DNA from: Alkalicaulis satelles
GTDB taxonomy: Bacteria > Pseudomonadota > Alphaproteobacteria > Caulobacterales > Maricaulaceae
Direction: 5' to 3'
Length of the DNA: 64,000 nucleotides
NCBI RefSeq assembly: GCF_008630495.1
Contig: NZ_VWOJ01000001.1
Span: 1,054,001-1,118,000, forward strand
The notes under the pieces are model-generated. The model worked only from the letters and a program-made list of their open reading frames with translations. It was not told the DNA's origin and ran no database searches. The position numbers were made by a program, and so were the translations under genes. This document shows positions 31,456 through 47,489 of the stretch, one piece after another (positions within the stretch are counted from its first letter, which is position 1; each line of letters starts with the position of its first letter).

Positions 31456-31499
31456 GGCCCGCTCCTTCGCTCGATCTGGAAGCGAGGCTAAAGCTAACA

Positions 31500-31516
31500 G
31501 GTATGATTATGCAAGT
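31500..31516 (+). promoter_or_regulatory. Cluster motif copy 1
   Basis: GGTATGATTATGCAAGT, 45 bases upstream of the SCPx-type thiolase start. One of seven copies of a 17-nt motif in the 5' gaps of this catabolic cluster. Likely an operator or shared promoter element. Confidence 0.6.
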
Positions 31517-31567
31517 AGCCACCTGAAGGGCCTTGCCAGCCGCCGCCGGATCGCCCACAATCGAGTT

Positions 31568-31584
31568 GGTATGGTTATGAAAGC
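31568..31584 (+). promoter_or_regulatory. Cluster motif copy 2
   Basis: GGTATGGTTATGAAAGC, 19 bases before the TTG start of the flavoprotein gene and 68 bases from copy 1. The octamer AAGCTAAC flanks both copies (31491-31498 and 31581-31588). Confidence 0.6.
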
Positions 31585-31602
31585 TAACTTCGGAGCCGCC
31601 GC

Positions 31603-32568
31603 TTGACCTCCACCACAGCCGATGCGCTGAAGGCCCGCATGCGCCTGCCCGCAGTTGTCGCACCCATGTTCCTGGTATCGGGACCTGCGCTGGTGGATGC
31701 TGCGCGCCGGGCCGGGCTGATGGCAAGCTTTCCTTTTCCCAATGCGCGCACCATCGAGGTGCTGGAGGACTGGCTGGCCGGCGCGTGTGCGCCTGACGGT
31801 CCACGCGCGCCCTTTGCGGCGAACATGGTCACCCATTCATCCTATGGCCGGTTCGACGCCGAGCTTGATCTGGTCGGCCGTTACAAACCCGAGATCGTCA
31901 TCACAGCGCTGGGCGGGCCGCGCCGGGTGGTGGATGCGGTCCATGAGTATGGCGGTCTGGTCTTCGCAGATGTCAATTCGGTGGGTTTCGCCAGGAAGGC
32001 CGTCGAGCAGGGCGCAGACGGGCTTGTGCTCGTCTCGGCAGGCGCGGGCGGACATACCGGCCCGATGGCCGGCTTCGCCTTCGTGTCCGCGGTGCGCCGC
32101 TTTTTCGACGGCCCGGTCATGCTGGGCGGCGGCATAGGCGACGGACGCGCAATCCGCGCCGCTGAGGTGCTGGGCGCGGACTTTGCCTATATGGGCACGC
32201 GCTTCATCGCTGCTGAAGAGAGTCTGGCGTCCGATGAATACCGCTCCATGCTCATAGCCGCCGAGTTCGAGGACCTTGTCCTGTCCAACAAGCTGACCGG
32301 GGCGGACGCCTATTACCTCAAGGCCAGCCTGGCCCGCATGGGCATCGGGGCGGACGGCCGCCGCGAGGACGGTCCCGATTTCGCCGACAGCGAAGGCCAG
32401 GTGAAAGCCTGGCGCGATGTCTGGTCCGCCGGGCATGGCGTGGGCGCGGTCACCGCCACGCAAAGCGCCGCCCTTATCGCCGACGCGCTGGCCAGCGAGT
32501 ACGCCGCCGCCTGCGCCATCCCCGTTCACACAGCTGAAAACCCTGCGCGTCCGGCGCGGGCAGTCTGA
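31603..32568 (+). CDS. Nitronate monooxygenase-family FMN enzyme
   Basis: TIM-barrel flavoprotein (321 aa) of the nitronate monooxygenase/2-nitropropane dioxygenase family. FMN-phosphate and active-site regions are seen in VSAGAGGHTGPMAGFAFV and GGGIGDGRAIRAAEVLGADF-YMGTRF. In catabolic clusters such proteins are often mis-named and may act as enoate or CoA-ester oxidoreductases; the true reaction is not determined. Start is a TTG at 31603 with GGAG seven bases upstream. It lies 12 bases upstream of the carotenoid-oxygenase gene and forms an operon with it. Confidence 0.82.
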   Translation: MTSTTADALKARMRLPAVVAPMFLVSGPALVDAARRAGLMASFPFPNARTIEVLEDWLAGACAPDGPRAPFAANMVTHSSYGRFDAELDLVGRYKPEIVITALGGPRRVVDAVHEYGGLVFADVNSVGFARKAVEQGADGLVLVSAGAGGHTGPMAGFAFVSAVRRFFDGPVMLGGGIGDGRAIRAAEVLGADFAYMGTRFIAAEESLASDEYRSMLIAAEFEDLVLSNKLTGADAYYLKASLARMGIGADGRREDGPDFADSEGQVKAWRDVWSAGHGVGAVTATQSAALIADALASEYAAACAIPVHTAENPARPARAV

Positions 32569-32580
32569 AGGAGGCCTGCC

Positions 32581-34029
32581 ATGACCATGATCGTCACCGA
32601 TTTCGAGCGCGAAGAGCTCAGCACCCCGGTCAACAAGCTCAACCCGTATCTGAAGGGCATTTATGCGCCCGTGCGCAAGGAAGTCACCGCGCTGGAGCTG
32701 GAGGTTGAGGGTGAGATTCCCCGCGATCTTCACGGGGCTTATGTGCGCAATGGCCCGAACCCGCTGAACGCGCCTGAGGGCATGCATCACTGGTTCGACG
32801 GCGATGGCATGCTGCACGGGATTTATTTCGAGAACGGCAAGGCGGAATACCGCAACCGCTATGTCCGCTCGGCCGATCACGAGGCGGAGAAAGCCGGCAT
32901 GCTTGATGCGGGCGGCATCCTCATGCCCGCCGACAAATCACGCCACCCCACCACCTACAAGGACACCGCCAATACCGATGTGGTCCTGCACAACGGCTCG
33001 CTGATGGCGCTGTGGTATATTTCCGGACAGCCGGTGCGCGTGGACGCGCGCACGCTCGAGACCGTGCGCACCGAGACCTTCTCGGGCAAGCTGCCCAAGA
33101 ATGTTTCCGCCCACTCCAAGGTGGACCCCGGGACCGGGGAGTTCGTGTTCTTTGACTATGACCTCTACAACCCGGTCATGAGCGCCGGGGTGGTGTCCAA
33201 GGACAATGAATTGTCCTGGTTCCGCGAGATCGAGCTGCCCGGGCCGCGCCTGCCCCACGACATGGCGATCACCGAGAATTACATGGTGCTGATGGATCTG
33301 CCGGTGGTGTTCACCGAGTCCGGCATACGCAACGGCATGTGGCAGATTCACCAGCCCAAGGGCCAGGCCACCCGCTTTGGCGTGCTGCGCAAGGACGGGA
33401 CCGGCGATGTGCGCTGGTTCGAGGCTGATCCGTGCTACATCTATCACGGGGTGAATGCGTGGGAGGAAGGCGACGAGATCGTCTTCTACGCCTGCAAGAT
33501 GATCCCCAACGGCCTCACCCCCGATCCCGCTTACGGCCCTTACGCGCCGATGGTTGGCGTGCTGGCCCTGCAGGCGGTGCTGTATGAGTGGCGCTTCAAT
33601 CTGAAGACCGGCCAGACCAAGGAGCGCCCCGTTGATGACCGGGTGACCGAGTTCCCGGTCATCAATCTCGACAAGACAGGCCGCGACAGCCGGTATTCCT
33701 ATCACGTCTCCATTCCCAATACCCAGACCCAGGTCTTTGACGGGCTGGTGAAATATGATCTCAAGACCGGACGCGGCGAGGCCCATGAATTCGGCCCCGG
33801 CCGGTTCGGATCCGAGCCGGCCTATGCGGCCAGGACCGGGGCCAAGCACGAGGATGACGGCTATGTCATCTCCTTTGTGTTCAACGCCGAGACCGGCGCG
33901 TCGGAAGCGCTGATCCTGGATGCGCAGGACTTCTCCTCCAAGCCGCTGGCGCGGGTGAAGCTGCCCCAGCGCGTGCCTGCAGGCTTCCACGGCACCTGGG
34001 CGCCGGGTGACCAGATCCGCGCGGCCTGA
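32581..34029 (+). CDS. Carotenoid/lignostilbene-type cleavage oxygenase
   Basis: Non-haem iron oxygenase (482 aa) of the carotenoid oxygenase/lignostilbene dioxygenase family, which splits a C=C bond into two carbonyl products. The four iron-ligand histidines are visible: His178 (NVSAHSKVD), His226 (RLPHDMAIT), His289 (IYHGVNAWEE) and His470 (PAGFHGTWAPG). The N-terminus has the RNGPNPL box with MHHWFDGDGMLHG. Start ATG at 32581 follows AGGAGG by six bases. No signal peptide. In this cluster it is the best candidate for the entry reaction, giving an aldehyde for the downstream PaaN-type dehydrogenase. A phenylpropanoid/stilbene or apocarotenoid substrate is possible. Confidence 0.92.
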   Translation: MTMIVTDFEREELSTPVNKLNPYLKGIYAPVRKEVTALELEVEGEIPRDLHGAYVRNGPNPLNAPEGMHHWFDGDGMLHGIYFENGKAEYRNRYVRSADHEAEKAGMLDAGGILMPADKSRHPTTYKDTANTDVVLHNGSLMALWYISGQPVRVDARTLETVRTETFSGKLPKNVSAHSKVDPGTGEFVFFDYDLYNPVMSAGVVSKDNELSWFREIELPGPRLPHDMAITENYMVLMDLPVVFTESGIRNGMWQIHQPKGQATRFGVLRKDGTGDVRWFEADPCYIYHGVNAWEEGDEIVFYACKMIPNGLTPDPAYGPYAPMVGVLALQAVLYEWRFNLKTGQTKERPVDDRVTEFPVINLDKTGRDSRYSYHVSIPNTQTQVFDGLVKYDLKTGRGEAHEFGPGRFGSEPAYAARTGAKHEDDGYVISFVFNAETGASEALILDAQDFSSKPLARVKLPQRVPAGFHGTWAPGDQIRAA

Positions 34030-34052
34030 CAGGGGTTCATGACAGTGAAGGG

Positions 34053-34084
34053 CGGGGCTCCGGGAGACCGGAGCCCCGTTTTTT
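34053..34084 (+). terminator. Rho-independent terminator
   Basis: A perfect 11-base stem CGGGGCTCCGG/CCGGAGCCCCG with a GAGA tetraloop and a run of six T, just after the oxygenase gene. It ends the flavoprotein-oxygenase operon and abuts the stop of the convergent DUF1295 gene. Confidence 0.9.
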
Positions 34085-34890
34085 CATGCCCGTTTGGGCG
34101 GCATGGGCACAAAGCCTGATGTGCGCGCCATGTATTCGGCATAGCCCGGCTTCTCGCGCGCCAGCTTCTTGTCCAGCGTGCGCATGCCGGTCACATTGAC
34201 CAGGAAATGGGTCATCATGATCGGGCCGATCACCGTCACGAGCGCGACGGGGTGCGCGCTGGCGGCGATGAAAATGCCCCACCACAAAAGCGCGTTGCCG
34301 AAATAGTTGGGATGGCGTGACCAGCCCCACAGGCCTTTATCCAGCACCTTGCCCTTGTTGGCGGGATCCTTGCGGAAGGCGGTCAGCTGCGCGTCGGCGG
34401 CGGCTTCGCACGCCACGCCCGCCAGCCATACCCCTGCGCCCACCCATAACAGCACCGGCCAGGCGGGCGGGCCGTCCATCGCCAGGGCCACGATGACAGG
34501 CAGCGCGACGATGACCATCACATGGCCCTGCAGCAGGAATACCCGGGTCAGGGAAAAGCGCGCGAAAGCCGCGTCTCCGCCCTGCACCCAGTCGCGCAGT
34601 TTCGCGTAGCGCGCATCTTCGCCATGGCCCCAATTGCGTTTCAGGATGAAAAGCGTGTAGCGGGCCGCCCACAGCGCCGGCATGGCCGCCAGCATGATCG
34701 CGTAAACGCTCTGGGGCCGGTTCAGCAGATACAGCGCCACCGCGATCACCGCGAATCCCGCCCCCCAGAACATGTCGATAATGCTGACATCGCGGATTTT
34801 CACGCTGATGGCCCACAGGGCCAGCACGCAGATCATCACCAGCGCATAGGCCACGGCCAGATTGAGAGCGATTGCAGAAACAAGGGTCAT
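34084..34890 (-). CDS. DUF1295 (steroid 5-alpha-reductase-like) membrane protein
   Basis: Integral membrane protein (268 aa) of DUF1295, related to steroid 5-alpha reductases and ICMT-type enzymes. The C-terminal family signature is complete: LWGWSRHPNYFGNALLWWGIF, then TVIGPIMMTHFLVNVTGM and REKPGYAEYMARTSGF. Six or more helices. In this context reduction of an enone or alkene is plausible, but DUF1295 proteins have few proven reactions. ATG at 34890 overlaps the SDR stop (ATGA), so it is coupled to that gene. Confidence 0.85.
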   Translation of the reverse strand: MTLVSAIALNLAVAYALVMICVLALWAISVKIRDVSIIDMFWGAGFAVIAVALYLLNRPQSVYAIMLAAMPALWAARYTLFILKRNWGHGEDARYAKLRDWVQGGDAAFARFSLTRVFLLQGHVMVIVALPVIVALAMDGPPAWPVLLWVGAGVWLAGVACEAAADAQLTAFRKDPANKGKVLDKGLWGWSRHPNYFGNALLWWGIFIAASAHPVALVTVIGPIMMTHFLVNVTGMRTLDKKLAREKPGYAEYMARTSGFVPMPPKRA

Positions 34891-35774
34891 GACTGCGCCT
34901 CCTGCGCGCACTTGACGAAATCCATGAAGGCGGCGGGCGCGCCCGAGGCTTCGCGTGCGCCGTCCATGGCGCCGGCGCGGGCCAGATCCGCTTCAGCCAC
35001 AGTGGCCGGCAAGGCTGATCCGCCGCCCTCCATCATCGCGGCCCGGCGGGCGAATCCTCCGCCTGTCACCCAAATCTCGCCACCGCGCTCGCACGCTGCG
35101 CTGGCCAGGAAGGCGCAGGCGGGCGCAGCGGCTTCAGGGGTGAAGCGCGCGGCCATCTCCCCGCTGATGGCGTCGCCCGTCATCCGGGTGGCCGCATAGG
35201 GCGCCAGCACGTTCACCCGCACAGGGCCGCGCCGCTCTTCCTGCGCCAGGGCCAGCGCAAATCCGTTCAGTGCGGCTTTCGAGGCGCTATAGGGAGCCCG
35301 CCCGTATATGCCGTACAGGCCCGCCGAGGATGACACGAACACCATCCGCCCCGCCGGGCTTTCGCGCAGATGGGGCAAGGCGGCGCGGGCCAGCGCGATC
35401 TGGGCGGTCAGATTGACCGCCATAACGGTCGCGAACTCATCTGCGGGCAGGTCCATGAACCGGCCCGCCGCGCCGTTCACCCCGGCATTGAAGATCACCG
35501 CATCAAGCCGCCCGAAGGCGGACAGGGCCGCCTGCACCATGGCTTCGCCCGCGCCAGGATCGGTGATGTCTGACAGTTCGGCGGCGGCGCGCCCTCCGGC
35601 AGCGCGAATTTCTGCAGCGGTCTGCTCAGCGCTGTCTTCAGCGCCTTCGCGCCGCCGGTTATTGACCACGACCGCGTCCCCGCGCGCCATGCAAGCCAGC
35701 GCGAAGGCCCGTCCCAACCCCTTGCCCGCCCCGGTGACCAGCGTCACCCGGCCGGGCTGTGATGGAGCGCCCAT
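34887..35774 (-). CDS. Short-chain dehydrogenase/reductase
   Basis: NAD(P)-dependent SDR (295 aa). Cofactor loop TGAGKGLGRAFA, FNAGVNG (variant of NNAG), catalytic Ser in VFVSSSAGLYG and the YSASK Tyr-Lys pair are all present. The sequence begins GRVTLVTGAG and carries about 45 extra C-terminal residues beyond the usual end (after WVTGGGFARRAA), which recalls the multifunctional-enzyme type SDRs of peroxisomal-like beta-oxidation. First of a two-gene unit with the DUF1295 gene; a motif copy is 39 bases upstream. Confidence 0.86.
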   Translation of the reverse strand: MGAPSQPGRVTLVTGAGKGLGRAFALACMARGDAVVVNNRRREGAEDSAEQTAAEIRAAGGRAAAELSDITDPGAGEAMVQAALSAFGRLDAVIFNAGVNGAAGRFMDLPADEFATVMAVNLTAQIALARAALPHLRESPAGRMVFVSSSAGLYGIYGRAPYSASKAALNGFALALAQEERRGPVRVNVLAPYAATRMTGDAISGEMAARFTPEAAAPACAFLASAACERGGEIWVTGGGFARRAAMMEGGGSALPATVAEADLARAGAMDGAREASGAPAAFMDFVKCAQEAQS

Positions 35775-35812
35775 AGCGGTTCCTCCCCTTGAAAGCTGAG
35801 GAAAAACTAGTG

Positions 35813-35829
35813 GGTATGATAATGAAAGT
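35813..35829 (+). promoter_or_regulatory. Cluster motif copy 3
   Basis: GGTATGATAATGAAAGT between the SDR start (35774) and the end of the HxlR regulator gene, 39 bases upstream of the SDR. Same strand orientation as all the other copies. Confidence 0.6.
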
Positions 35830-36819
35830 CTAGGCCCCCTGCGCCCGGACTTCTTCCTGGCTGCGCCGCATGGGCCGGATGTGGAAGGCCACCTCGCCGG
35901 GCACGAGCGGCTGGTGGCAGCACGAGCAAGCCATCACCGGATCCAGCGGCAGTCCAGTGTGCCGGTGCTCGAGCACCAGGGGCGGCCCTTCTGGCGCCAC
36001 ATACCAGCGGTCGCCCCACACCATCAGCATGACCAGCACCGGATAATAGTCGATGCCGGTCTCGGTCAGGCGGTACTCATAGCGGGCGGGACTTTCGGAA
36101 TAGAGCCGCTTGTGGATCAGCCCCATGCCCGTCAGCCATTGCAGGCGGTCGGCCAGGATGTTGGTGGCGATGGCCGCGTCCTTCTGGATCTCGTCATAGC
36201 GGCGGAAGCCGGTGAAGATCGAGCGCAGGATGAGCGAGGCCCAGCGGTCGCCCAGCACCTGCACGATCACGTCCAGAAGATTGCTCTCTGTGCTTTCAGC
36301 GTCTGTGCGCTGCTTGCGCCGCCGGCTGTGGCGCGGCGCGATCCAGCCCATGCCCGGCCCGTGTTCCCAGCTGACATCCCGGGCAGTGAAAGGCACGCCG
36401 GCCGAGCGGCTGAACGGCACCGCATCGATATTGCGCGCGCCACAAGCCAGGTGATCAAGCTGGACGGTGAACTTGGTCGCCGCCGCGCCCCAGCGCTTCT
36501 CCCAGCGCAACATGGCCAGCGCCACCCAGTACAGGTCGCGGCCCTTTTCGGTGGCCCAGTACTCATACCGCGCAGGCCGTTCGGAATACTGGCGCTTCTC
36601 CAGCAGCCCGGTCTCGGTCATGGTCTTGAGCCGCTGGCTGAGCAGCGCCTTGAGCAGGCCGGTGCGCTGCTGGAAGCCGTCGAACCGCCGTTCACCCAGC
36701 CAGAACGCCTCCAGAATCAGCATGGTGGGCACGTCGCCCACCACCTCCAGCGCACGCCAGATAGAACAGCTGCGGATCAGCTTCAGGTCAGCAGCGGGTT
36801 TCACGGTCGCAAGTTGCAT
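35830..36819 (-). CDS. Tandem HxlR-type transcriptional regulator
   Basis: A 329-residue DNA-binding protein made of two HxlR winged-helix domains in one chain. The first (about 15-110) reads CSIWRALEVVGDVPTMLIL-EKRQYSERPARYEYWATEKG; the second (about 155-260) reads VIVQVLGDRWASLILRSI-HKRLYSESPARYEYRLTETG. A C-terminal CSCCHQPL segment could bind metal. HxlR proteins normally act as homodimers of about 110 residues, so this looks like a fused dimer. It is the only regulator in the catabolic cluster and the best candidate to read the repeated 17-nt motif. Start is uncertain: ATG at 36819 or GTG at 36855, neither with a strong ribosome site. Confidence 0.85.
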   Translation of the reverse strand: MQLATVKPAADLKLIRSCSIWRALEVVGDVPTMLILEAFWLGERRFDGFQQRTGLLKALLSQRLKTMTETGLLEKRQYSERPARYEYWATEKGRDLYWVALAMLRWEKRWGAAATKFTVQLDHLACGARNIDAVPFSRSAGVPFTARDVSWEHGPGMGWIAPRHSRRRKQRTDAESTESNLLDVIVQVLGDRWASLILRSIFTGFRRYDEIQKDAAIATNILADRLQWLTGMGLIHKRLYSESPARYEYRLTETGIDYYPVLVMLMVWGDRWYVAPEGPPLVLEHRHTGLPLDPVMACSCCHQPLVPGEVAFHIRPMRRSQEEVRAQGA

Positions 36820-36875
36820 AACAACTCGTATAGGCGATGCGGCGGGCTTTGTCACAGACGGTTTTCGCGCGTGCG

Positions 36876-36892
36876 GGTATGATTTTCACAGC
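36876..36892 (+). promoter_or_regulatory. Cluster motif copy 4 (degenerate)
   Basis: GGTATGATTTTCACAGC, in the divergent gap between the HxlR gene and the CoA ligase operon. The 5' half is perfect, the 3' half is the poorest match of the seven. Confidence 0.45.
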
Positions 36893-36930
36893 TGGCGCAG
36901 CGATAGGACTTGGCGCCGGACGCTCCAGTT

Positions 36931-36947
36931 GGTTTGATTGTGCAAGT
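36931..36947 (+). promoter_or_regulatory. Cluster motif copy 5
   Basis: GGTTTGATTGTGCAAGT, 50 bases upstream of the CoA ligase start and 55 bases from copy 4. Confidence 0.55.
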
Positions 36948-36996
36948 TATAAAACGGCGGATCACGCCGCACGTGAACAATGGGAGGAGACCGGCC

Positions 36997-38679
36997 ATGG
37001 ACCGGACAGCGCAGGCGCAGGCGCGCCATCAGGCCTATCGCGACAAGGGGTGGTGGGACGGCCGCACGCTGCATGGCGCTTTCGACGCCGCCGCCTCTGA
37101 CGCGCCGGACCAGACCGCCATCGTCGATCCGCTCGATTGCGAAGCCCTGATCGGCCGCGCGCCCCTGCGCCTGAGCTGGGCGGAGGCGAAAAACGCGGCG
37201 GACAATCTGGCCGCGGTCATGAAACAGGCCGGGATCGGGCGCGGTGATGCGGTTCTGGTCCAGCTTCCCAACACCGCAGAACTGACGGTTCTTTACATCG
37301 CCCTGTCCCGGCTGGGCGCCATCATCAGCCCCATCGCCATGCAGTATGGCCGCCACGAAGTGGCCCACACCTCCGGCGAGCTGGGGGCGAAAGCCTTTAT
37401 CGGGATCACGCGCTTCAAGGACGAGCCGTGTGCGCCGCGGATCGCGGACGCGCTGCCCGCCGGCGCCAAGCGATTTGCGTTCGGCGCCAGGACAGAAGGC
37501 TTCGAGCCGCTGGCGCTGGACTTCTCCGAGCCCGGGTCCCGCCCCGCATCCGAAGGCCAGGCGGAGGACATCGTCACGATCTGCTGGACTTCGGGTTCGA
37601 CCGGCACGCCCAAGGGCGTGCCGCGCCATCACGGCCACTGGTTCACCCAGAGTCTGGCGGTGTTCGATGCGGTGCCGCTGCCCAAGGGCTCGGCCATGCT
37701 CAACCCGTTTCCGCTGATCAATATGGCCGCGTTGGCGGGCTTCTTCGTCTATTGGCTGGAGAACCGCGGCACGCTGGTCCTGCACCATCCTTTCGATCTG
37801 CCCGGCTTCCTGCGCCAGCTGGTGACGGAGAAGATCGCCTACACCATCGCGCCGCCCGCCGTGCTGAACATGTTCCTTCAGAACGAGGCCCTTCACGGGC
37901 AGGTCGATCTGTCGGCGGTGAAATACATCGCTTCAGGCTCCGCGCCGCTCGATCCCTGGATGACCAAGGGGTTCAAGGACAAGTTCGGGGTGGAGATCGT
38001 GAACTTCTTCGGCTCCAACGAGGGGATCGGCCTTGTGGGCGGCCCCGCCGAAGTGCCCGACCCCGAACAGCGTGCAGTGGTCTTCCCCCGTTTCGGCGCG
38101 CCAGGCCTGAGCTGGTCCAACGGCTTTGCAGCCTTTTTCGAGAGCAAGCTGGTCGACTGGCAAAATGATGACGCGCTGATCGATGCGCCGGGCCTGACAG
38201 GCGAGCTTCTGATCCGCGGGCCGAACGTGTTTGATGGCTATCTCGGCGACACAGGCGAGGATGTGTTCGACGCCGAGGGATATTTCCGCACCGGCGATCT
38301 GTTCGAAATCGCCGGAGAGGGGGAGATGGCCCGCTTCTACCGCTTCAAGGGCCGGCGCAAGGACGTCATCATCCGCGGCGGCGTGAACATTTCTCCCGAA
38401 GAGCTTGATGGCGTGCTCAACGCCCATCCCGCCATCGTGGAAGCCGCGGTATGCGGCTATGATGACCGCATGATGGGCGAGAAGGTGTGCCTGTTCGCCG
38501 TGGTCAAGGACGGCGAGAGCCTCGATCTGGAATCTGTCAAAACCTTCCTTGAAGACAAGGGCGTGGCCAAGTTCAAATGGCCCGAGCGGCTGGAGCTGAT
38601 CGACCAGCTGCCGCGCAATCCTCTCAACAAGGTGGTGCGGCCCGATCTGAAGAAACGGCTGGAGACCAGCTCCGCATGA
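36997..38679 (+). CDS. Acyl-CoA synthetase (AMP-forming)
   Basis: ANL-superfamily CoA ligase (560 aa) that activates a carboxylic acid to its CoA thioester via an acyl-adenylate. P-loop TSGSTGTPKGVPRHH, FGSNEG (A5), GELLIRGPNVFDGY and GYFRTGDLF (A7) and the catalytic lysine in RNPLNKVVRPDL are present. The start at the ATG at 36997 follows GGGAGGAGA. First gene of a three-gene coupled operon (ligase-thiolase-ligase). Substrate unknown; it is the larger of the two ligases in the cluster. Confidence 0.9.
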   Translation: MDRTAQAQARHQAYRDKGWWDGRTLHGAFDAAASDAPDQTAIVDPLDCEALIGRAPLRLSWAEAKNAADNLAAVMKQAGIGRGDAVLVQLPNTAELTVLYIALSRLGAIISPIAMQYGRHEVAHTSGELGAKAFIGITRFKDEPCAPRIADALPAGAKRFAFGARTEGFEPLALDFSEPGSRPASEGQAEDIVTICWTSGSTGTPKGVPRHHGHWFTQSLAVFDAVPLPKGSAMLNPFPLINMAALAGFFVYWLENRGTLVLHHPFDLPGFLRQLVTEKIAYTIAPPAVLNMFLQNEALHGQVDLSAVKYIASGSAPLDPWMTKGFKDKFGVEIVNFFGSNEGIGLVGGPAEVPDPEQRAVVFPRFGAPGLSWSNGFAAFFESKLVDWQNDDALIDAPGLTGELLIRGPNVFDGYLGDTGEDVFDAEGYFRTGDLFEIAGEGEMARFYRFKGRRKDVIIRGGVNISPEELDGVLNAHPAIVEAAVCGYDDRMMGEKVCLFAVVKDGESLDLESVKTFLEDKGVAKFKWPERLELIDQLPRNPLNKVVRPDLKKRLETSSA

Positions 38680-39920: not shown

Positions 39921-41395
39921 TCCCGCCGGTCCTGCGTTTTATGGAAAGCGCCGCGCGCTGGCCGGACCGGCCCGCGCTGCAGGACGATCTGGGCGCCCGG
40001 CTGACCCATGGAGAGCTCGCCAGCCGGGCGGCGGCGCTGGCGGCCGGGCTGCAGAAGCGGTTGGGCGATAATCGCGAAGCCATTGTGGCGCTGGCGGCGA
40101 AGAACCATGCAGACCATGTGGTCGCAATGTTCGGTATTTTCCTCGCCGGTTATGCCTGGCTGCCTCTCAACCCGCGCAGCGCCCCGGCCCTCAATATCCA
40201 GATATGCGAAACGCTGCGGCCCTCACTGGTGCTGCTGGACGAGGCCTGCAAGGACTGCGTCAACTCCAGCAGCCTGCCAGCGGCGTTGTTCAGGGCTGGC
40301 GACCGGCAGGGTCTGGACGCGCTCAGCGCAGACGCCGGACAGTGGCGCGCGCCGGCCCTGGCGCCCGATCACGTGATGAGCGTGAAGCTGACGGGGGGCA
40401 CGACCGGCAGGCCCAAGGCCGTCGCCCAGACGCAACGCGTGATCGCCACAGCCGCCAGTGACCTGGCCGCCGTGTTCGCGATCACGGGCGAGGACGTCAA
40501 TCTCGCCGCCGCGCCCTTGTCGCACGGGGCTTTCCATCTGCTATTGCCCGTTCTGATCGCAGGCGGGCGTCACGTCATCGCCTCCGACCTGTCGCCTGAA
40601 GCGCTTCTGGACGCGATGGAGCGCGAAGGGGTGACCCTGGCCTTCATGCCGCCCACCCTGATCATCAAGCTGAGCGGGAGCGGGCTGGCGCGCCCTGAAC
40701 GTTTCCCCGCGCTGCGCGAACTGATCTATTCGGCCGCCCCCATGCCCCCGGCCCAGATACGCCGCGCCTGGGAGGCTTTCGGGCCGAAAATCGCGGCCAT
40801 GTACGGTCAGGTCGAAGCGCCCATGGCGCTGGCGGCGATGACGGCGGGAGAGATGGCCGGGACCGGCAAGCTGGAGAGCGCCGGGCGGGCCTGCCCGTCC
40901 ACCCAGCTGCGCATTCTCGGTCCGGATCCGGACGGAACAGGTGAAATTGCGGCGCGCGGTCCGCTGGTCGCGCCGCGCTACCTCACCGGGGAGCCGCTGG
41001 ATATCGAGGATGGCTGGCTGAAGACCGGCGATCTGGGGCGCATCGACCCGGACGGCCATGTGTTCATCCGGGGACGGTCGCGCGAAATGCTCATCACCGG
41101 CGGCTTCAATGTCTATCCGGCCGAGGTCGAGCGGGCGCTTCTGTCCGTGGACGGGGTCACGGAGGCCTGCGTGTTCGGCGTGGCCGATCCCTATTGGGGC
41201 GAGCGGGTGGAGGCCGCCATCGTGGCGCAGCCCGGCGTGGATGACGAGGCTTTGCGCGAGGCGGTGAAAGCCGCCATCGGCGCGGTGGCCGCGCCCAAGG
41301 CCATCCACAGAATCGAGGCCCTGCCGCGCAACCCGGTGGGCAAGGTGGTGCGCCGGGAAGTCGCCGCCCTGTTCAGCGCTTGTGACGGGGCGTGA
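39917..41395 (+). CDS. Acyl-CoA synthetase (AMP-forming), second copy
   Basis: A 492-residue ANL-superfamily ligase. P-loop LTGGTTGRPKAVAQT, MYGQVEAPMA (A5), GEIAARGPLVAPRYL, DGWLKTGDLGRIDPDG (A7), GGFNVYPAEVE and the catalytic Lys in RNPVGKVVRREV are visible. GTG start overlapping the thiolase stop. Its 3' end overlaps the convergent thioesterase gene by 23 bases. The two ligases differ clearly in sequence, so they may serve the two products expected from oxidative cleavage. Confidence 0.88.
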   Translation: MIPPVLRFMESAARWPDRPALQDDLGARLTHGELASRAAALAAGLQKRLGDNREAIVALAAKNHADHVVAMFGIFLAGYAWLPLNPRSAPALNIQICETLRPSLVLLDEACKDCVNSSSLPAALFRAGDRQGLDALSADAGQWRAPALAPDHVMSVKLTGGTTGRPKAVAQTQRVIATAASDLAAVFAITGEDVNLAAAPLSHGAFHLLLPVLIAGGRHVIASDLSPEALLDAMEREGVTLAFMPPTLIIKLSGSGLARPERFPALRELIYSAAPMPPAQIRRAWEAFGPKIAAMYGQVEAPMALAAMTAGEMAGTGKLESAGRACPSTQLRILGPDPDGTGEIAARGPLVAPRYLTGEPLDIEDGWLKTGDLGRIDPDGHVFIRGRSREMLITGGFNVYPAEVERALLSVDGVTEACVFGVADPYWGERVEAAIVAQPGVDDEALREAVKAAIGAVAAPKAIHRIEALPRNPVGKVVRREVAALFSACDGA

Positions 41396-41819
41396 TCATC
41401 ATCCCCGCCGTGCCGCGCGCGTGCACGCCTGCATCGGAGGACACGGTGCACTCGGCGACCGCCAGCGTGCGCCCGCGATGCACGATCCGCGCTTCGGCGA
41501 TGAGCCTTGCAGTGGATATCGGCGCAGCGCGCACATAGCGCACCTGCAGGTCGGTTGTTGCAAAACGCTGGCTATCGTCCAGCAGGGTCAATAGCGCGCA
41601 GCCCGTCACCGCATCCATCAGCCCGGCCATCACCCCGCCATGCACGCCCGCCATGAGATTGGCGTGATCGGACCTGACCGGGCATTCGAGCTTGGCCGCG
41701 CCGTCAGAGAATTGTGCAACATCAAATCCCAGCAATGCCGCGAAACCGGGAATCCGTCCGGCCTCGCGCCAGGCGGTCAGGATATCCAGTCCCGAGCCTT
41801 CGAAGGCCAGGGCGCTCAT
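41373..41819 (-). CDS. PaaI-type hotdog thioesterase
   Basis: Hotdog-fold thioesterase (148 aa) that hydrolyses acyl-CoA esters, thought to rescue trapped CoA in degradation pathways. The family core is ANLMAGVHGGVMAGLMDAVTG, followed by TTDLQVRYVRAAP and AEARIVHRGRTLAVAECTV. ATG at 41819 overlaps the stop of the PaaN-type gene (ATGA); its 3' end overlaps the convergent ligase gene. Such thioesterases commonly accompany phenylacetyl-CoA genes. Confidence 0.87.
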   Translation of the reverse strand: MSALAFEGSGLDILTAWREAGRIPGFAALLGFDVAQFSDGAAKLECPVRSDHANLMAGVHGGVMAGLMDAVTGCALLTLLDDSQRFATTDLQVRYVRAAPISTARLIAEARIVHRGRTLAVAECTVSSDAGVHARGTAGMMITPRHKR

Positions 41820-43525
41820 TCGGCCGCCGCCGCAGGAACCGGCTCGCGGAACTGCACGATGCGGAAGCGGTCGGCCACAAAGGCCAGATCCGCCAGACAG
41901 GCATTGCCCGCCGGGTTCAGGCCGGTGACATGATAATCCGAATAGGCCGCCGCGAAATTGATCGGCATGCGGTTGTCCATATTTATCCAGAGTGACGCGC
42001 CCGCCTCGGCGAACCGGTCCTGGGCCGTCTCGATGAAGCCGCGATCGGCGGAATAGAGATAGGACGAGATCGCGCCGCGTTCGGATGCGATGCGGGCCGA
42101 GTTTTCCAGCGCCGCCTCTCTGGACGCCTCCCGGATCACGAAGCAGACCGGCGCAAACACCTCTTCGCCGTAGAGATCGATCTGGCTGGCGTCGACCGAC
42201 ACCACGAGCGGGGTTGCGGTGCGCGCGTTCGGAAAGTCGGGATGAGCGTAGGGACGCGAGTCCAGCAGCACCTGGCCGCCGGCCGCCAGCACCTTCTCGC
42301 GGACCTCGCTGATCAGCTCGAGCGATTGTTCGGCCTGGACCGCTGCGCACAGTCCCGCCGCGCGGGCCGGGTTTTCCGTGCGCCGGGTGATGGCGTCCAC
42401 AATCCGCCGGGCCGCCTCGTCAAAGCTCAGCGTCTTGCCATCTGCGCGCACGCCGGTTTCGGGCAAGTGGACATTCTGCGGGCTGGTGCACATCTGGGCG
42501 GAGAAGCCGCACAGCCCATTGGCCAGGCCGCCAATGGCCGCATCCATGTCATCAAAACTGTCCAGCACCACCGCATTGCACCCTGCGGTCTCGGTATAGA
42601 CCAAGCGGTCCGCGCAGTGCTCTTCGATCCAGGCGCCAAAGCGCTGGCTGCCGGTATAGTCGATGATCGCGCAGGCGGGATGCTTGAGCAGGTCGATCGT
42701 GATGGGCGCTTCGCGCTCGTCGGCGGCCAGCAGGACCATATTGGGGTCGAGCCCTGCGCCGGTGAGCACCTCACGCATGCGTTTGACGGCCATGGCGACG
42801 GGCAAAATGCCATTGGGATGGGGTTTGAGGATCGCCGCATTGCCCGTCATCAGATTGGCGAACACCGCCGGATAGGCGTTCCACATGGGAAATGTCGCGC
42901 AGCACACCACCACCGCCACGCCGCGCGGACGCAGCCGGTAGGTCTTCTTCAGGCGCACCACGCCTGTGCGTCCGAAATTCTTCTCCCACTCGGCCGCGCG
43001 CGGCACGTCCGCCATCGCCTTGTAGGCATAGGCCAGAGCCTCCACGCCCCGGTCCAGCGCGTTCGCGCCGCTGCCCGAGAACGCCATCAGATAGGCCTGT
43101 CCGGCAGTGTGCATGGTCGCGTGAGCGTTGGCGAAGGCCTGCTCTTCCAGCGCGAACGCCATCTCGAAACAGACCCCTGCCCGCTCCTCGGACGTCAGAC
43201 AGTTCCAGCCGGTCATCGCCGCTCTGGCGGCGCTGAACAGCGCATCGGGGTCAGACTTGGGATAGGCGATGGCCAGCGGTTCGAGCGTGTAGGGCGAGAC
43301 CTCATGGCCCACCGCGCCGATCGTCCCGGGCTGGTCCAGCTCGAAGGGCCGGCCCAGAAGGGCCTCGAAGCGCGCCTTGCCCTCCGCCGGGCGTTCCTCG
43401 CCGTGGATTTTCGAGCTGGGCGATTCCTTGAACGGGCTCCATTGCTCACGCGTGGCGCAGGCCTTCAGCGCAGCGTCCAGATGGTGCGCGTGGCGCGCGG
43501 CCAGATCAGCGGGTCGGGCAGTCAT
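41816..43525 (-). CDS. PaaN-type aldehyde dehydrogenase
   Basis: A 569-residue member of the PaaN branch of aldehyde dehydrogenases. Diagnostic segments: FEALLGRPFELDQPGTIG, MHTAGQAYLMAFSGSGANA, ATFPMWNAYPAVFANLMTGN, the NAD-fold IIDYTGSQRFGAWIE and the catalytic Cys in SAQMCTSPQNVH, plus WINMDNRMPINF near the end. In this cluster it most likely oxidises the aldehyde made by the cleavage oxygenase; PaaN proteins lack a hydratase domain, unlike PaaZ. ATG at 43525 has AGGAG seven bases upstream; the frame extends to a TTG at 43540. A motif copy lies 44 bases upstream. Confidence 0.85.
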   Translation of the reverse strand: MTARPADLAARHAHHLDAALKACATREQWSPFKESPSSKIHGEERPAEGKARFEALLGRPFELDQPGTIGAVGHEVSPYTLEPLAIAYPKSDPDALFSAARAAMTGWNCLTSEERAGVCFEMAFALEEQAFANAHATMHTAGQAYLMAFSGSGANALDRGVEALAYAYKAMADVPRAAEWEKNFGRTGVVRLKKTYRLRPRGVAVVVCCATFPMWNAYPAVFANLMTGNAAILKPHPNGILPVAMAVKRMREVLTGAGLDPNMVLLAADEREAPITIDLLKHPACAIIDYTGSQRFGAWIEEHCADRLVYTETAGCNAVVLDSFDDMDAAIGGLANGLCGFSAQMCTSPQNVHLPETGVRADGKTLSFDEAARRIVDAITRRTENPARAAGLCAAVQAEQSLELISEVREKVLAAGGQVLLDSRPYAHPDFPNARTATPLVVSVDASQIDLYGEEVFAPVCFVIREASREAALENSARIASERGAISSYLYSADRGFIETAQDRFAEAGASLWINMDNRMPINFAAAYSDYHVTGLNPAGNACLADLAFVADRFRIVQFREPVPAAAAE

Positions 43526-43568
43526 CCAATGCTCCTGCAATGTCTTGCGGCATATGGTGGCTCAATTG

Positions 43569-43585
43569 GGTATGGTTGTGCAAGC
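43569..43585 (+). promoter_or_regulatory. Cluster motif copy 6
   Basis: GGTATGGTTGTGCAAGC in the 110-base divergent gap between the PaaN-type gene and the SDR gene, roughly central (44 and 51 bases from the two starts). Confidence 0.6.
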
Positions 43586-43635
43586 GACATGGGCGGTCTA
43601 GTTTCAGGCTCTGACATCACACAGAGGAGCCGCCC

Positions 43636-44592
43636 GTGAGTCTGTCAAAAACAATCAATTTCTATGGCCGATTCCTAATCCCGTTCTCGCGGCTCGGGTT
43701 CATGCTCAAGGGGCTGAACATTCCCGAGCAATATGACGGTCTGGAAGGGCGCACGGTCCTGATCACCGGCGCCACGGGCGGCATCGGCGCGGCCATGGCG
43801 CTGGGCGTGGCGAGAAGCGGCGGTATAGCGCTGGCGGCCGGGCGCAGTGACAGCAAGCTGGCGGATCTGGTGGCGCAAGCCAAAGGCCTGGCTGGACGGG
43901 TCGAACCGCTCAAGGCGGACCTGTCGCTCGCCTCCGACACTTTGGCGCTTGCCGATATGCTCGCAGCCCGGCCTGGCGGTGTTGATGCGCTTATCAATAA
44001 TGTGGGCGTGCTCAATCATGCCCATGAGGCCACGGGCGAGGGTATCGACGCGATGTATGCGGTCAATATCCTCAACCCCTTCATCCTGACAGAGGCGCTG
44101 ATGGCGTCCGGCGCGCTCAAGCCTGGAGGCTGCGTGGTCAATATGGCCTCGGGCGGCATGTATAATGCGCCCCAGAACCTCGTTTACATGGAGCAGAAGC
44201 CCGAAGGATATAACGGCTTCGCCGCCTACGCGACCCACAAGCGCGCCCAGCTGGTGCTGTCAGACGGCTGGGCCGCGCGCGGCTACGCCGCCTGGACCAT
44301 GCATCCAGGATGGGTGGACACTGACGGCGTCAAGCGTTCGCTGCCGAAATTCCGCAAGGTCCTCAAATCGATCCTGCGCAATGAAGACCAGGGCGCAGAT
44401 ACCGCCCTGTGGCTGATCAGCGCGCGCCCTGCGCCCCAGGCCGGCGCGCTGTGGTTCGACCGCGCGCCCCGCCCGGCCCACGCCTTCAAGCGAACCCGTA
44501 CGCCGCTGGCCAGCGACGCCGATATCCGCGCCAAGCTGGAAACCGGCGCCGCCGCCCTCAAGACACGCCTGCAAACCGGAGACGCCTCATGA
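43636..44592 (+). CDS. Short-chain dehydrogenase/reductase (DHRS12-like)
   Basis: SDR (318 aa) with an N-terminal extension (about 35 residues) typical of the DHRS12-like group. Cofactor loop TGATGGIGAAMA, NNVGVLN, a VVNMASGGMY Ser strand and the catalytic YATHK are present. It starts with GTG at 43636 with AGAGGAG upstream. Coupled by ATGA to the SnoaL-like gene. Substrate not evident; oxidation or reduction of a carbonyl in the cluster pathway is likely. Confidence 0.84.
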   Translation: MSLSKTINFYGRFLIPFSRLGFMLKGLNIPEQYDGLEGRTVLITGATGGIGAAMALGVARSGGIALAAGRSDSKLADLVAQAKGLAGRVEPLKADLSLASDTLALADMLAARPGGVDALINNVGVLNHAHEATGEGIDAMYAVNILNPFILTEALMASGALKPGGCVVNMASGGMYNAPQNLVYMEQKPEGYNGFAAYATHKRAQLVLSDGWAARGYAAWTMHPGWVDTDGVKRSLPKFRKVLKSILRNEDQGADTALWLISARPAPQAGALWFDRAPRPAHAFKRTRTPLASDADIRAKLETGAAALKTRLQTGDAS

Positions 44593-45023
44593 GCCATCTT
44601 CAAAGTTTTCTCGACCTGGTCGCCGACTGGAAGCGCGGCGATCTCGACGCCGTGGCGGCGCGCCTGTCGCCGGATGTGGTCTGGCATTTTTCCGCCACCA
44701 CCAAGCCGCCCGCCATCGGGCGTGAGGAATCCATCGCCTTTTTGAAAGCCTATGGTCAGGTCTCGTCCAATAGCCGTCTTCGCCTTTTCACCCATGCAGA
44801 GACCGAAGACCGGCTGTTTTACGAGGCTGCAGAAGATTTTGACGGTCCGGACGGCCAGCGCGTGCTCGTGCCTTATGCAGGCATTGTGGATTTCGCACCC
44901 GACGGCCTGATTACCGGCTGGCGCGATTATTTCGACCGCGCCCTGATTGATGGCCAGGTGGCCGGAACCGCCAAGCTGCCCGATTACGCAAGCGATCTGA
45001 TCAACCGGCCGTCCATGGACTGA
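44589..45023 (+). CDS. SnoaL/limonene-epoxide-hydrolase-like (NTF2-fold) protein
   Basis: A 144-residue NTF2-fold protein. The C-terminal strand-turn GIVDFAPDGLITGWRDYFD, with Arg and Asp in WRDYFD, resembles limonene-1,2-epoxide hydrolases, while the rest is compatible with SnoaL-type isomerases. It may hydrolyse an epoxide or isomerise a ring intermediate; function is inferred from fold and context only. ATGA overlap with the SDR gene. Ends 9 bases before a strong hairpin. Confidence 0.72.
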   Translation: MSHLQSFLDLVADWKRGDLDAVAARLSPDVVWHFSATTKPPAIGREESIAFLKAYGQVSSNSRLRLFTHAETEDRLFYEAAEDFDGPDGQRVLVPYAGIVDFAPDGLITGWRDYFDRALIDGQVAGTAKLPDYASDLINRPSMD

Positions 45024-45031
45024 CAAGGCAA

Positions 45032-45057
45032 GCCCCCGCTCCGGAAGGAGCGGGGGC
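45032..45057. terminator. Strong hairpin between convergent genes
   Basis: A perfect 11-base stem GCCCCCGCTCC/GGAGCGGGGGC with loop GGAA. It lies between the SnoaL-like gene and the convergent TonB receptor. There is no clean T-tract on either side, so it is a probable bidirectional terminator or 3' stabiliser. Confidence 0.65.
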
Positions 45058-45080
45058 CAATTCAGTCTTCCTGTTGGAAA

Positions 45081-47408
45081 CTAGAAGCGCAGCGAGGCCT
45101 GCACGCCCACAACGCGCGGACGCAGGGGCACAGCGTACTGCGTGTTCGCGCCCACCGAGCTGGCGAACGGGACGTTCGCAGCGAAGGTCAGCACTTTTTC
45201 ATCCAGAAGGTTGCGGGCCAGCAAGGCCACTTCCCAGCGCTCGGTTCCGAAACCGGCCCTGAGATCGACCATGGTGTAGCCGTCCACATTGCCCAGCGGG
45301 TCCAGATTGTCGTGGATGTTGTGGCTGCCCGTATAGGCCACGTTGAGCACACTGGAGAAGTCGATGGTGTCGGTGACAGGCCGGTCATAGGACAGCCTGG
45401 CGAAACCCGTCCATTCGGGGGTGAACCGGCCGCGGCGGCCTGTGTAGTCGCATAGCTGGACGCCATCGACGATGTCCCCGTCCGGCGTCTCCTGGAAGGC
45501 GCAATTGCCGCGGCGGAAGTCGGTGTATTCAAAGTCGAGATATGACACCCCTGCGGCCAGCGAGAGCTCGTTGGTCAGCGCGATCCGGCCGTCAATATCG
45601 AAGCCGGAGATCTCCGTCTTGCCCGCATTGCCCACATTGAAACCGATCGTGCCATCGAACTGGCTGATCTGCAGGTTGGAGTATTGTGAGAAATAGGCCG
45701 TGGCGTTGAACTGGGCGCGTCCCGCCATCAGGTCCGAACGCAAGCCCGCCTCATAGGTGCGCACGGTCTCGTCGGCGAACTCGAAAAAGGCCGTGCGGTT
45801 GCCGCGCACGTCGAAGCCGCCGCCTTTGAAGCCCTCCTTGTAAGAGGCGAAGATCATCACGTCGTCAGTGGCGTCGAATTCCACGGTCACGGACGGCGTC
45901 AAACGGCTTTCCGAGCGCGACTGGCTGAGATCATGGCCTGATCCGCCGCCCGGATTGTTCAGCTCGACGCCCAGGCCGGCCTGGATGGTCGCCAGAACCA
46001 CCGGATCGGTGACCAGAGGCGCGTCAAAGCCCAGCGGGTTTGTCGTGGCCGCGATCTGACGGGTGGCGTCCTTGTCTTCGGTGGTCCAGCGCAGACCGCC
46101 AATCAGGCGCAGCCGGTCGGTCAGGTCGTAGGTCAGCTCGCCAAACAGCGCGAAGGCGGTCGAATCCGTCTTGTAGCGGCGCTCCAGTCCGACATTGGCC
46201 AGCGGCGCGAAGCCCAGATTGGTGATATCCGGGCCAAAGCCGGTGATGTCGTTATTGGTCAGTGTCGAGGACTGATAAAACCCGCCCGCGATCCAGCGCA
46301 GACGCTGGTCCTGCCGGGAGACCACCCGGACCTCCTGGGTGAACTGGTCATAGTCCTCTGACAATAGCCCCGTGAGGATGAAGTAGTTGGTGAAATCGAG
46401 ATCAGCCAGCTCGTCGCGGCTATAGTCGAGATAGCCGGTCACCGAGGTGAGCGTGCCGAAGCCCAGATCGTAATTGGCCGTCAAAGTGGCGTTGAACAGC
46501 GTGTTGTCGGCGAACTCATCGGAATCTGCGTCGCGGGTGAAGTTGAACTCGCTATTGGTGATCGCACCAGGCAGCCCGGCCCCGGTCAGCGCATTGGCGA
46601 AGGTCAGCGGGACGCCATTGGGAAGGGTCTGGGTGTTCACGTCGCGCACCACTTCGATCTCGCGCCCGCGTGAATCGAACCGGTTATGCTCCAGCTTCAG
46701 CGTCGCGTCGAAACGGTCATTGGGCTCGAACAGGAGCGAGCCGCGGATGGCGAATTGCTCCCGGCTCGGCTCATCGCGGCCCTTGTTGGGATTGGAGACG
46801 AACCCGTCAGTCTCGTAATAGCGCACCGCCAGGCGCCCCATCAGCTGTTCTGACAACGGGCCGGAAACCGCCGCATCCACCTGCCGGTCGCCGAACTCGG
46901 GCATCCAGGTCGCGGTGACATAGCCTGTGGTCTCGCGGGTGGGCGCTGCAGTGATCAGGCTCAGCGCGCCCGCCACGGTGTTCTTTCCGAACAGCACGGA
47001 CTGGGGCCCGCGCAGCACTTCAACCCGCTCCAGGTCGAAGAAGGGCGCGCGAATCAGCTGGGCGCGGCCATAGCTGACCCCGTCAATGAACTGGGCCACG
47101 GATTGCTCGAAAGCCGGATCATTGCCGGTGCCCACGCCGCGGATAAACATTTGCGTGCCGATACCGGTCTGGGTGACCTGGAAGTTCGGAACCGTCAGCT
47201 GAAGATCGTCCAGCGTGGCGATGCTCAACTCGTTAAGCGTCTGGCCCTCCAGCACGGTAATGGCGATCGGCACGTCCGTGACCGCCTGTTCTCGGCGCTG
47301 GGCGGTGACGGTGACCGTGTCCAGCTGCTGGGCCAGCGCCTCGGCGCCGTCAATGGCGACGATCAACGCCGCCAGCCCTGCTCCGATGAGATAGCGAGAT
47401 ACTTTCAT
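45081..47408 (-). CDS. TonB-dependent outer-membrane receptor
   Basis: Outer-membrane beta-barrel receptor (775 aa) for energised uptake. It has a signal peptide (MKVSRYLIGAGLAALIVAI... ending near ALAQ), a TonB-box-like start LDTVTVTAQRREQAVTDVP, a plug with FIRGVGTGNDPAFEQSVAQ and LRGPQSVLFGKNT, and a barrel ending in the terminal aromatic residue (VGVQASLRF). This is the pattern of alphaproteobacterial receptors found with degradation clusters, distinct from siderophore receptors with nearby iron genes. ATG at 47408 has GGGGAG upstream. A motif copy 65 bases upstream ties it to the catabolic regulon. Confidence 0.93.
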   Translation of the reverse strand: MKVSRYLIGAGLAALIVAIDGAEALAQQLDTVTVTAQRREQAVTDVPIAITVLEGQTLNELSIATLDDLQLTVPNFQVTQTGIGTQMFIRGVGTGNDPAFEQSVAQFIDGVSYGRAQLIRAPFFDLERVEVLRGPQSVLFGKNTVAGALSLITAAPTRETTGYVTATWMPEFGDRQVDAAVSGPLSEQLMGRLAVRYYETDGFVSNPNKGRDEPSREQFAIRGSLLFEPNDRFDATLKLEHNRFDSRGREIEVVRDVNTQTLPNGVPLTFANALTGAGLPGAITNSEFNFTRDADSDEFADNTLFNATLTANYDLGFGTLTSVTGYLDYSRDELADLDFTNYFILTGLLSEDYDQFTQEVRVVSRQDQRLRWIAGGFYQSSTLTNNDITGFGPDITNLGFAPLANVGLERRYKTDSTAFALFGELTYDLTDRLRLIGGLRWTTEDKDATRQIAATTNPLGFDAPLVTDPVVLATIQAGLGVELNNPGGGSGHDLSQSRSESRLTPSVTVEFDATDDVMIFASYKEGFKGGGFDVRGNRTAFFEFADETVRTYEAGLRSDLMAGRAQFNATAYFSQYSNLQISQFDGTIGFNVGNAGKTEISGFDIDGRIALTNELSLAAGVSYLDFEYTDFRRGNCAFQETPDGDIVDGVQLCDYTGRRGRFTPEWTGFARLSYDRPVTDTIDFSSVLNVAYTGSHNIHDNLDPLGNVDGYTMVDLRAGFGTERWEVALLARNLLDEKVLTFAANVPFASSVGANTQYAVPLRPRVVGVQASLRF

Positions 47409-47472
47409 GATGGTCTCCCCTGACTGAAAGTTCGGCGATCCAGGCCGCCGTTGAGCGGAGATTGTCATAGTT

Positions 47473-47489
47473 GGTATGATAATAAAAGT
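47473..47489 (+). promoter_or_regulatory. Cluster motif copy 7
   Basis: GGTATGATAATAAAAGT, 65 bases upstream of the TonB receptor start. It marks the right-hand end of the motif-bearing region. Confidence 0.6.

Follow-up and report, generated by a model that had tools for sequence, protein, structure and literature searches.

Many bacterial winged helix-turn-helix (wHTH) regulators are homodimers that act on palindromes. The AraC-family monomers MarA and Rob, which are activators, place two helix-turn-helix motifs on an asymmetric site, and TetR has been engineered as a single-chain heterodimer used with hybrid tet operators. HxlR-family proteins bind DNA as dimers, according to a passage in PMC7835342. 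Here, we analyzed a window of 64,000 nucleotides from Alkalicaulis satelles (contig NZ_VWOJ01000001.1, positions 1,054,001 to 1,118,000), in which a catabolic cluster encodes a tandem HxlR regulator, P0001, and carries copies of an asymmetric motif in its promoter regions. From comparative sequence evidence, we consider it likely that 25-bp sites built around this motif are operators of the cluster-encoded protein, a fused HxlR pair whose diverged domains would occupy hybrid half-sites and most likely repress. What sets this system apart is an operator that is hybrid and directional. By sequence and by structural model, P0001 belongs to the same family as the one-domain HxlR/DUF24 regulators (PA1607, YodB, HypR, and Bacillus subtilis HxlR), and one-domain relatives in our sample have sites of the same 25-bp geometry. 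Unlike those regulators, P0001 has two domains per chain and dissimilar operator halves (the one-domain operators being known here from the sampled relatives). With single-chain TetR it would share two different DNA readers in one chain and a hybrid operator; that protein, however, is engineered and comes from another family, whereas the pairing proposed here is natural and deduced from sequence. MarA and Rob would resemble it in having one chain, two readers, and a directional site whose orientation matters at promoters, but differ in fold and in being activators. Neither a tandem or double HxlR protein nor a hybrid HxlR operator was found in the open-access literature, as judged by titles and abstract openings.

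The regulator is encoded in the middle of the cluster:

35830..36819, minus strand: tandem HxlR regulator P0001, 329 amino acids; first domain (D1) approximately residues 14-112, second domain (D2) approximately residues 176-274

Two stretches of P0001 matched PF01638 (123.6 bits against a gathering score of 20.8), placing it in the HxlR family, and a profile built from one-domain relatives again found two domains. It was the only regulator among 20 window proteins scanned with Pfam. The AlphaFold2 model of the whole chain (mean predicted local distance difference test [pLDDT] 85.9; predicted template modeling score [pTM] 0.84) makes it likely, as judged from these scores, that the two domains are held in a fixed arrangement. 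Its best Foldseek matches were PA1374, PA1607, YodB, and HypR, which we take to be HxlR/DUF24 proteins, in alignments approximately one domain long; P0001 thus has the wHTH fold of DUF24/HxlR structures. It departs from the usual HxlR mode, a homodimer on a symmetric operator (a mode that PF01638 membership does not itself require), in being a single two-domain chain paired with an asymmetric site. Cys18 of D1 is nearly invariant (at least 90%) in 43 tandem proteins and presumably sits close to where redox- or aldehyde-sensing DUF24 members have their conserved N-terminal cysteine; by eye, D2 of the window protein has no Cys there. A Cys-containing, zinc-ribbon-like stretch follows each HxlR domain in the tandem family and is partly lost in P0001 (linker and C terminus).

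An earlier note on this DNA had reported seven copies of a 17-nt motif with nine invariant positions, and all seven, as well as the nine positions, were found as described (31500, 31568, 35813, 36876, 36931, 43569, and 47473). A pattern of the nine positions matched the window 8 times (0.14 expected; none of 100 dinucleotide shuffles reached 8). To extend the motif, a matrix was seeded with the window's own seven sites, which already gave strong matches in relatives' clusters, and iterated on tandem-HxlR loci (cutoff, 15 bits; reversed sequence as control). These loci were the best 80 of 200 candidates from a collection scan with an alignment (A1) of eight tandem proteins. The motif proved to be 25 bp long, AGTnRGTWTSRTWATGMAAGTnAnT. 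A version of the matrix built on 231 sites (five closest loci left out) ranked exactly six window sites, at 25.8 to 31.6 bits, compared to 6.0 bits for the best other place in the window and 11.7 bits at best in the reversed window sequence. Promoter regions were also aligned with three relatives, except that region A could be matched to just two of them and region E (47473) to no relative; in these alignments of two or three relatives, sites 31500, 31568, 35813, 36931, and 43569 were conserved islands in otherwise drifting intergenic DNA. The predicted operators, with scores from the matrix lacking the five closest loci, are as follows:

Operator 1: 31496..31520, plus strand; G-arm 31496-31504, C-arm 31512-31520; upstream of the minus-strand thiolase operon (start 31455); 17-mer at 31500; 26.0 bits; kept in 2 relatives
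Operator 2: 31564..31588, plus strand; upstream of the plus-strand NMO-family gene (predicted start 31603, TTG); 17-mer at 31568; 31.3 bits; kept in 2 relatives
Operator 3: 35809..35833, plus strand; flanked by the stop codon of hxlR and the minus-strand SDR gene (start 35774), its end overlapping the last 4 bases of hxlR; 17-mer at 35813; 28.2 bits; kept in 3 relatives
Operator 4: 36927..36951, plus strand; divergent region between hxlR (minus) and an acyl-CoA ligase gene (plus); 17-mer at 36931; 31.0 bits; intergenic island in relatives
Operator 5: 43565..43589, plus strand; divergent region between the PaaN-family gene (minus) and an SDR gene (plus); 17-mer at 43569; 25.8 bits; kept in 3 relatives
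Operator 6: 47469..47493, plus strand; upstream of the minus-strand TonB-dependent receptor gene (predicted start 47408); 17-mer at 47473; 31.6 bits; a similar 36.2-bit site in locus L048 of genome G013
Seventh reported copy: 36876..36892, plus strand; probably a chance look-alike

Judged by matrix score and conservation, the reported sites are real apart from 36876. That copy was rejected: it was unconserved in Glycocaulis profundi, G013, and Marinicauda and absent from the top places listed in the matrix scans, and its GGTATG was lost in G. profundi even though the regulator there is 95% identical. The claim that copies never fall inside genes holds for the seven, but the eighth match of the nine-position pattern, at 31954, is a weak look-alike within the NMO gene.

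Company with the tandem gene was assessed at three scales. Across the whole 2.89-Mb genome, the nine-position pattern occurred at 16 places (7 for a backwards control): the seven sites, 31954, and 8 outside the window. Neither GGTATG nor GGTTTGATT was present at any of the nine places beyond the seven sites. A second pattern, allowing up to 2 mismatches, gave 23 genome places (control, 10), of which 7 had 0 or 1 mismatch; six of these were reported sites and the seventh lay on another contig. The best place outside the cluster for this pattern (L244) has one mismatch. Among 61 genomes, including this one, 45 had some HxlR match, with long matches spanning both domains in G000, G013, G017, G054 (two copies), G021, G032, G008, G027, and G055; in G016, a tandem gene is truncated where its contig ends. 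The strict 17-base pattern was present in 6 of the 61; five of these six hold a tandem HxlR gene, one cut by the contig end, and 10 of 12 places were on the regulator's own contig. A strict match also lies at G047:C4:199142-199158, in a genome without a recognized tandem HxlR. No exact match to the strict pattern was found in five other tandem-bearing genomes. Finally, 78 of the 80 tandem loci had sites (290 at 15 bits or more versus 19 in reversed sequence). Going by record titles, most loci in this best-80 sample belong to sphingomonads or to Caulobacteraceae, Maricaulaceae, and Hyphomonadaceae types, and a small number lie elsewhere (e.g., Stappia, Ramlibacter, Pseudidiomarina, and Kordiimonas); G. 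profundi holds the closest relative, at 95%. The scans that the earlier note had proposed found the motif nearly confined to tandem-HxlR loci and not equally common elsewhere.

These distributions bear on two alternatives. The first, which goes beyond the weaker alternative of the earlier note (a shared core promoter for the minus-strand units), is that the motif amounts to a core promoter (-35/-10 region) common to the units and recognized by no protein of its own. It draws on TTKCAT, a -35 that some relatives follow with a phased -10, and on the one window site that covers a conserved -10-like TTTGAT (17-mer at 36931). However, a sigma-70-type core promoter would recur at promoters genome-wide, and neither the genome scan nor the 61-genome scan showed this; near confinement to tandem-HxlR loci (exceptions, G047 and one contig of G016), conservation over 25 bp including bases outside the promoter hexamers, occurrence in both orientations to genes, and arms that match sites of other HxlR genes make this explanation extremely unlikely. 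The second is that the operator belongs to some other regulator whose gene lies elsewhere, the tandem HxlR being a passenger. As might be expected of a passenger, only 24 of 80 hxlR genes have a site in the 200 nt before their predicted start. Yet motif and tandem HxlR occur together in 78 of 80 loci, five of six pattern-bearing genomes hold the tandem gene, no other regulator was among the 20 window proteins scanned, and the arms are of HxlR type, leaving the passenger idea very unlikely. The proposal of a private operator uniting five promoter regions, predicted for the tandem HxlR, is well supported by comparative data. The weaker alternative of the note, a core promoter element, is itself right in part: in some relatives' promoters the operator includes a -35 at a fixed distance from a -10, and at 36931 it lies over the conserved -10-like TTTGAT.

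What the earlier note had not seen is the probable origin of the asymmetry, namely that the two half-sites differ and that each is read by a different HxlR domain. Early leads to symmetric sites at other HxlR genes came from whole-site matrices on 20 loci, several of which had symmetric 25-bp sites upstream, and from a hand-weighted consensus on 60 loci (some with no gene found). A palindrome search by self-complementarity was discarded, since G+C-rich chance palindromes dominated it and 33 of 58 loci dropped out at its gene-finding step; arm models with a reversed-sequence control were used instead. For the comparison, 120 HxlR loci were taken (L027-L046 and L138-L237; a few genes fetched twice), of which 118 had a usable upstream stretch; no frame holding two HxlR domains was present in any of the 118. 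The tandem motif supplied two arm models, G type (AGTnRGTWT) and C type (AGTnACTTK), and every position was scored for each of their four possible combinations, class CG being the same hybrid as GC on the other strand. At a threshold of 14.7 bits (95th percentile of the reversed control), 38 rows representing 33 distinct sites remained, with 80 of 118 rows, some of TN-type genes, below it. Thirty of the 33 sites were symmetric and of two kinds, with AGTnAGTYT arms (GG) or AGTnACTTK arms (CC), e.g., AGTCACTTT-AATTTTG-CAAGTTACT at L190 and AGTGAGTTT-ATAAACT-AAACTCACA at L039; hybrid calls made up 3 of 33 (L036, L040, and L216). L036 and L040 show a third near-symmetric kind, AGTTGC...GAAACT, and overlapping C-type repeats lie upstream of the one-domain TN HxlR genes at L178 and L180.

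The kind of site followed the recognition helix. Genes with a T/S-N helix (TN type; e.g., VTTNIL, IATNVL, and IPTNTL) had 17 CC sites and 1 hybrid (L040), whereas genes with other helices (SRTIL, ARRVL, TRHIV, etc.) had 12 GG sites, 2 hybrids (L036 and L216), and 1 CC site (L185, helix TTSVL; Fisher P = 1.5 × 10−7 for 17/0 versus 1/12, the three hybrid calls dropped). In an alignment of 81 tandem proteins (80 loci plus the window; three with stops), D1 helices were mostly of the KALL, QTLL, and RSVV types and D2 helices mostly of the ATNIL type. The simplest reading, and a likely one, assigns the C-arm to D2 and the G-arm to D1. In Kordiimonas (L124 10959 and L125 10981), an altered D2 helix (AVPNTL) accompanies an altered right arm with a normal left arm, a thin hint that fits D2 on the C-arm. 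A domain tree, built on few columns, placed D1 (30 rows) and D2 (30 rows) each in one group, with a weak join between them (80/47); both a duplication and a fusion of two lineages would be compatible with this weak grouping. Altogether, it seems somewhat probable that the tandem proteins form a natural single-chain heterodimer family in which each fused domain keeps its own half-site, the directional operator takes a preferred promoter orientation, and the sixth base of an arm (G or C) follows the recognition helix as a simple HxlR reading code.

Hybrid sites were then predicted from one-domain arms (score above 14.2; GG from non-TN and CC from TN genes only; 30 G arms and 34 C arms). In the 80 tandem loci, a G arm and a C arm 7 bp apart gave 192 hits versus 40 in reversed sequence, spread over 66 loci. 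Gaps of 5, 6, 8, and 9 for the G-C pairing gave no excess over control, nor did GG with gap 7 (24 versus 26); CC with gap 6 gave 16 versus 7. This geometry bears on another alternative, that two tandem chains dimerize with one domain each on DNA, the asymmetry arising elsewhere. The dimeric action of HxlR-family proteins described in PMC7835342 would suit it, as would paired sites 18 nt apart in some loci. Nevertheless, hybrid arms with a 7-nt gap have the geometry of one-domain sites, and the single-chain model is confident (again as judged from its scores), so we regard a two-chain dimer as quite improbable. The 18-nt pairs were seen at L131, L132, L133, L137, L128, and L064, mostly Sphingomonadales relatives with a shortened D1 wing; side-by-side binding of two chains may account for them.

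Several observations weigh against the fused-pair reading, besides the small share of hxlR genes with a site close upstream. The tests were controlled but not fully independent, since the matrix seed came from the window and one-domain scoring used tandem-derived arms. Some of the 78 loci had only weak, chance-level hits (e.g., L080, L098, and L127), and 23 of 289 relatives' sites lay within predicted genes, some possibly through gene-finder errors. CC with gap 7 was also enriched in tandem loci (52 versus 16). In the window itself, only two of six sites passed the threshold of 14 under the one-domain-arm model, and three of the six scored lower than a place at 48675 (10.5) that is not a site. 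D1 is assigned to the G-arm by elimination, because none of the one-domain genes combined a D1-like KALL helix with a site. As 23 of 26 TN one-domain rows, together with L185, fell in one clade of the domain tree, the link between helix and arm is confounded by ancestry and reflects a small number of independent events; L040, whose TN-type helix falls elsewhere in the tree, breaks the rule, the sixth base being G in each of its arms. Lastly, no convincing phased -10 was found at the window's four minus-gene sites, whose positions 28 to 35 read CTTTAGCC, TTTTTCCT, AGCCACCA, and GACAATCT.

To relate sites to genes, a simple gene finder was applied to the 289 relatives' sites of at least 16 bits: one-sided regions held 144 of them and divergent regions 120, while 23 fell within predicted genes and 2 between convergent genes. 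All window copies face the same way, as the earlier note had said, but this did not extend to relatives, where 200 of 289 ran opposite to hxlR and 89 along it. In one-sided regions, the motif strand was opposite to the gene at 115 of 144 sites (C-arm upstream of the gene) and along it at 29 (binomial P = 2.6 × 10−13, with related loci counted although they are not independent). In the direction of the gene, the usual form reads AGTnACTTKCATAAYSATACTnACT. At 21 of 101 distinct sites TAnnnT occurred at +30, and CTA at +29 was likewise present at 21 of 101 compared to a mean of 0.51 elsewhere; the phased -10 in this part of the relatives' sites lies exactly 17 bp after TTKCAT, a -35 supplied by the C-arm. 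Although each of the 21 CTA cases is from a different locus, they do not amount to 21 independent events, because those listed (e.g., L065, L067, L069-L072, and L075) include an orthologous promoter just behind hxlR. In the window, site 36927-36951 lies along the ligase gene and covers TTTGAT at 36933-36938, 17 nt after TTGGCG at 36910-36915 (predicted -10 and -35); TTGGC, the 17-nt spacing, and TTTGAT are kept in four genomes. Same-direction sites were searched for a common upstream -35, and TTGGC was rightly placed in a few loci, mainly the window's close clade.

Overlap of the operator with core promoter elements favors repression, the overlap being firm for only part of the sites. The opposite sign is nevertheless arguable: bound to the same hybrid operator, the tandem HxlR could aid RNA polymerase, as B. 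subtilis HxlR does, with fixed orientation and poor -35 boxes reflecting polymerase contact. The strong orientation bias (115 of 144) and the fixed register to the -10 in part of the sites suit such contact, TTKCAT is a weak -35, and B. subtilis HxlR is labeled a transcriptional activator in the PDB. But the operator covers the -35 plus spacer, or the -10 at 36927, where bound protein should block polymerase, and 29 of 144 one-sided sites are in the other orientation. On balance, activation appears unlikely.

The predicted target units are as follows:

Unit 1: 27681..31455, minus strand; MFS transporter and two thiolases
Unit 2: 31603..34029, plus strand; NMO-family enzyme and RPE65/carotenoid-cleavage-type dioxygenase
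Unit 3: 34084..35774, minus strand; DUF1295 protein and SDR
Unit 4: 36997..41395, plus strand; acyl-CoA ligase, SCPx-like thiolase, and second acyl-CoA ligase
Unit 5: 41373..43525, minus strand; PaaN-family aldehyde dehydrogenase (TIGR02288 above cutoff) and hotdog thioesterase
Unit 6: 43636..45023, plus strand; SDR and SnoaL-like protein
Unit 7: 45081..47408, minus strand; TonB-dependent receptor

Every promoter region of the cluster was said to be marked by the motif, and nearly all are; for hxlR itself, the one site available is 36927-36951, which it shares with the divergent gene. Relatives' sites led to 273 putative target proteins of at least 100 amino acids, from which 120 were listed at random and thinned by hand to 83 for a Pfam tally: SDR (17), AMP-binding ligases (10), TonB receptors (9), DapB-like proteins (8), RPE65-type dioxygenases (7), NMO (7), SnoaL/LEH (7), thiolases (6), and DUF1295 (5). 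With the exception of DapB-like proteins, these commonest families are the window's own kinds. Among the rows shown for 17 window proteins scanned, only PaaN (TIGR02288) and one thiolase (PRK06289) exceeded an equivalog cutoff. The PaaN-type aldehyde dehydrogenase (41816-43525) shares the cluster with a carotenoid-cleavage-type dioxygenase.

Under the mechanism that we propose, two HxlR protomers have been fused in one chain and have diverged in half-site preference. One domain, likely D1, would read the G-arm AGTnRGTWT, and the other, likely D2 with its A-T-N-I-L recognition helix, the C-arm AGTnACTTK 7 bp away, making the site a directional hybrid of two symmetric HxlR operator kinds. The operator would sit over the core promoter, the C-arm often holding the -35 in relatives and the site covering the -10 at the window's ligase gene. 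Bound protein would most likely block RNA polymerase by occlusion at the five promoter regions, and a pathway metabolite would release it. If this is true, a widespread natural fusion with unequal halves would show how a family can escape from palindromic operators. A hybrid operator could avoid cross-talk with one-domain cousins that read the pure forms, and it would gain a direction relative to the promoter. The finding would also map the regulon of a catabolic cluster conserved in Alphaproteobacteria and offer an HxlR reading code that can be tested.

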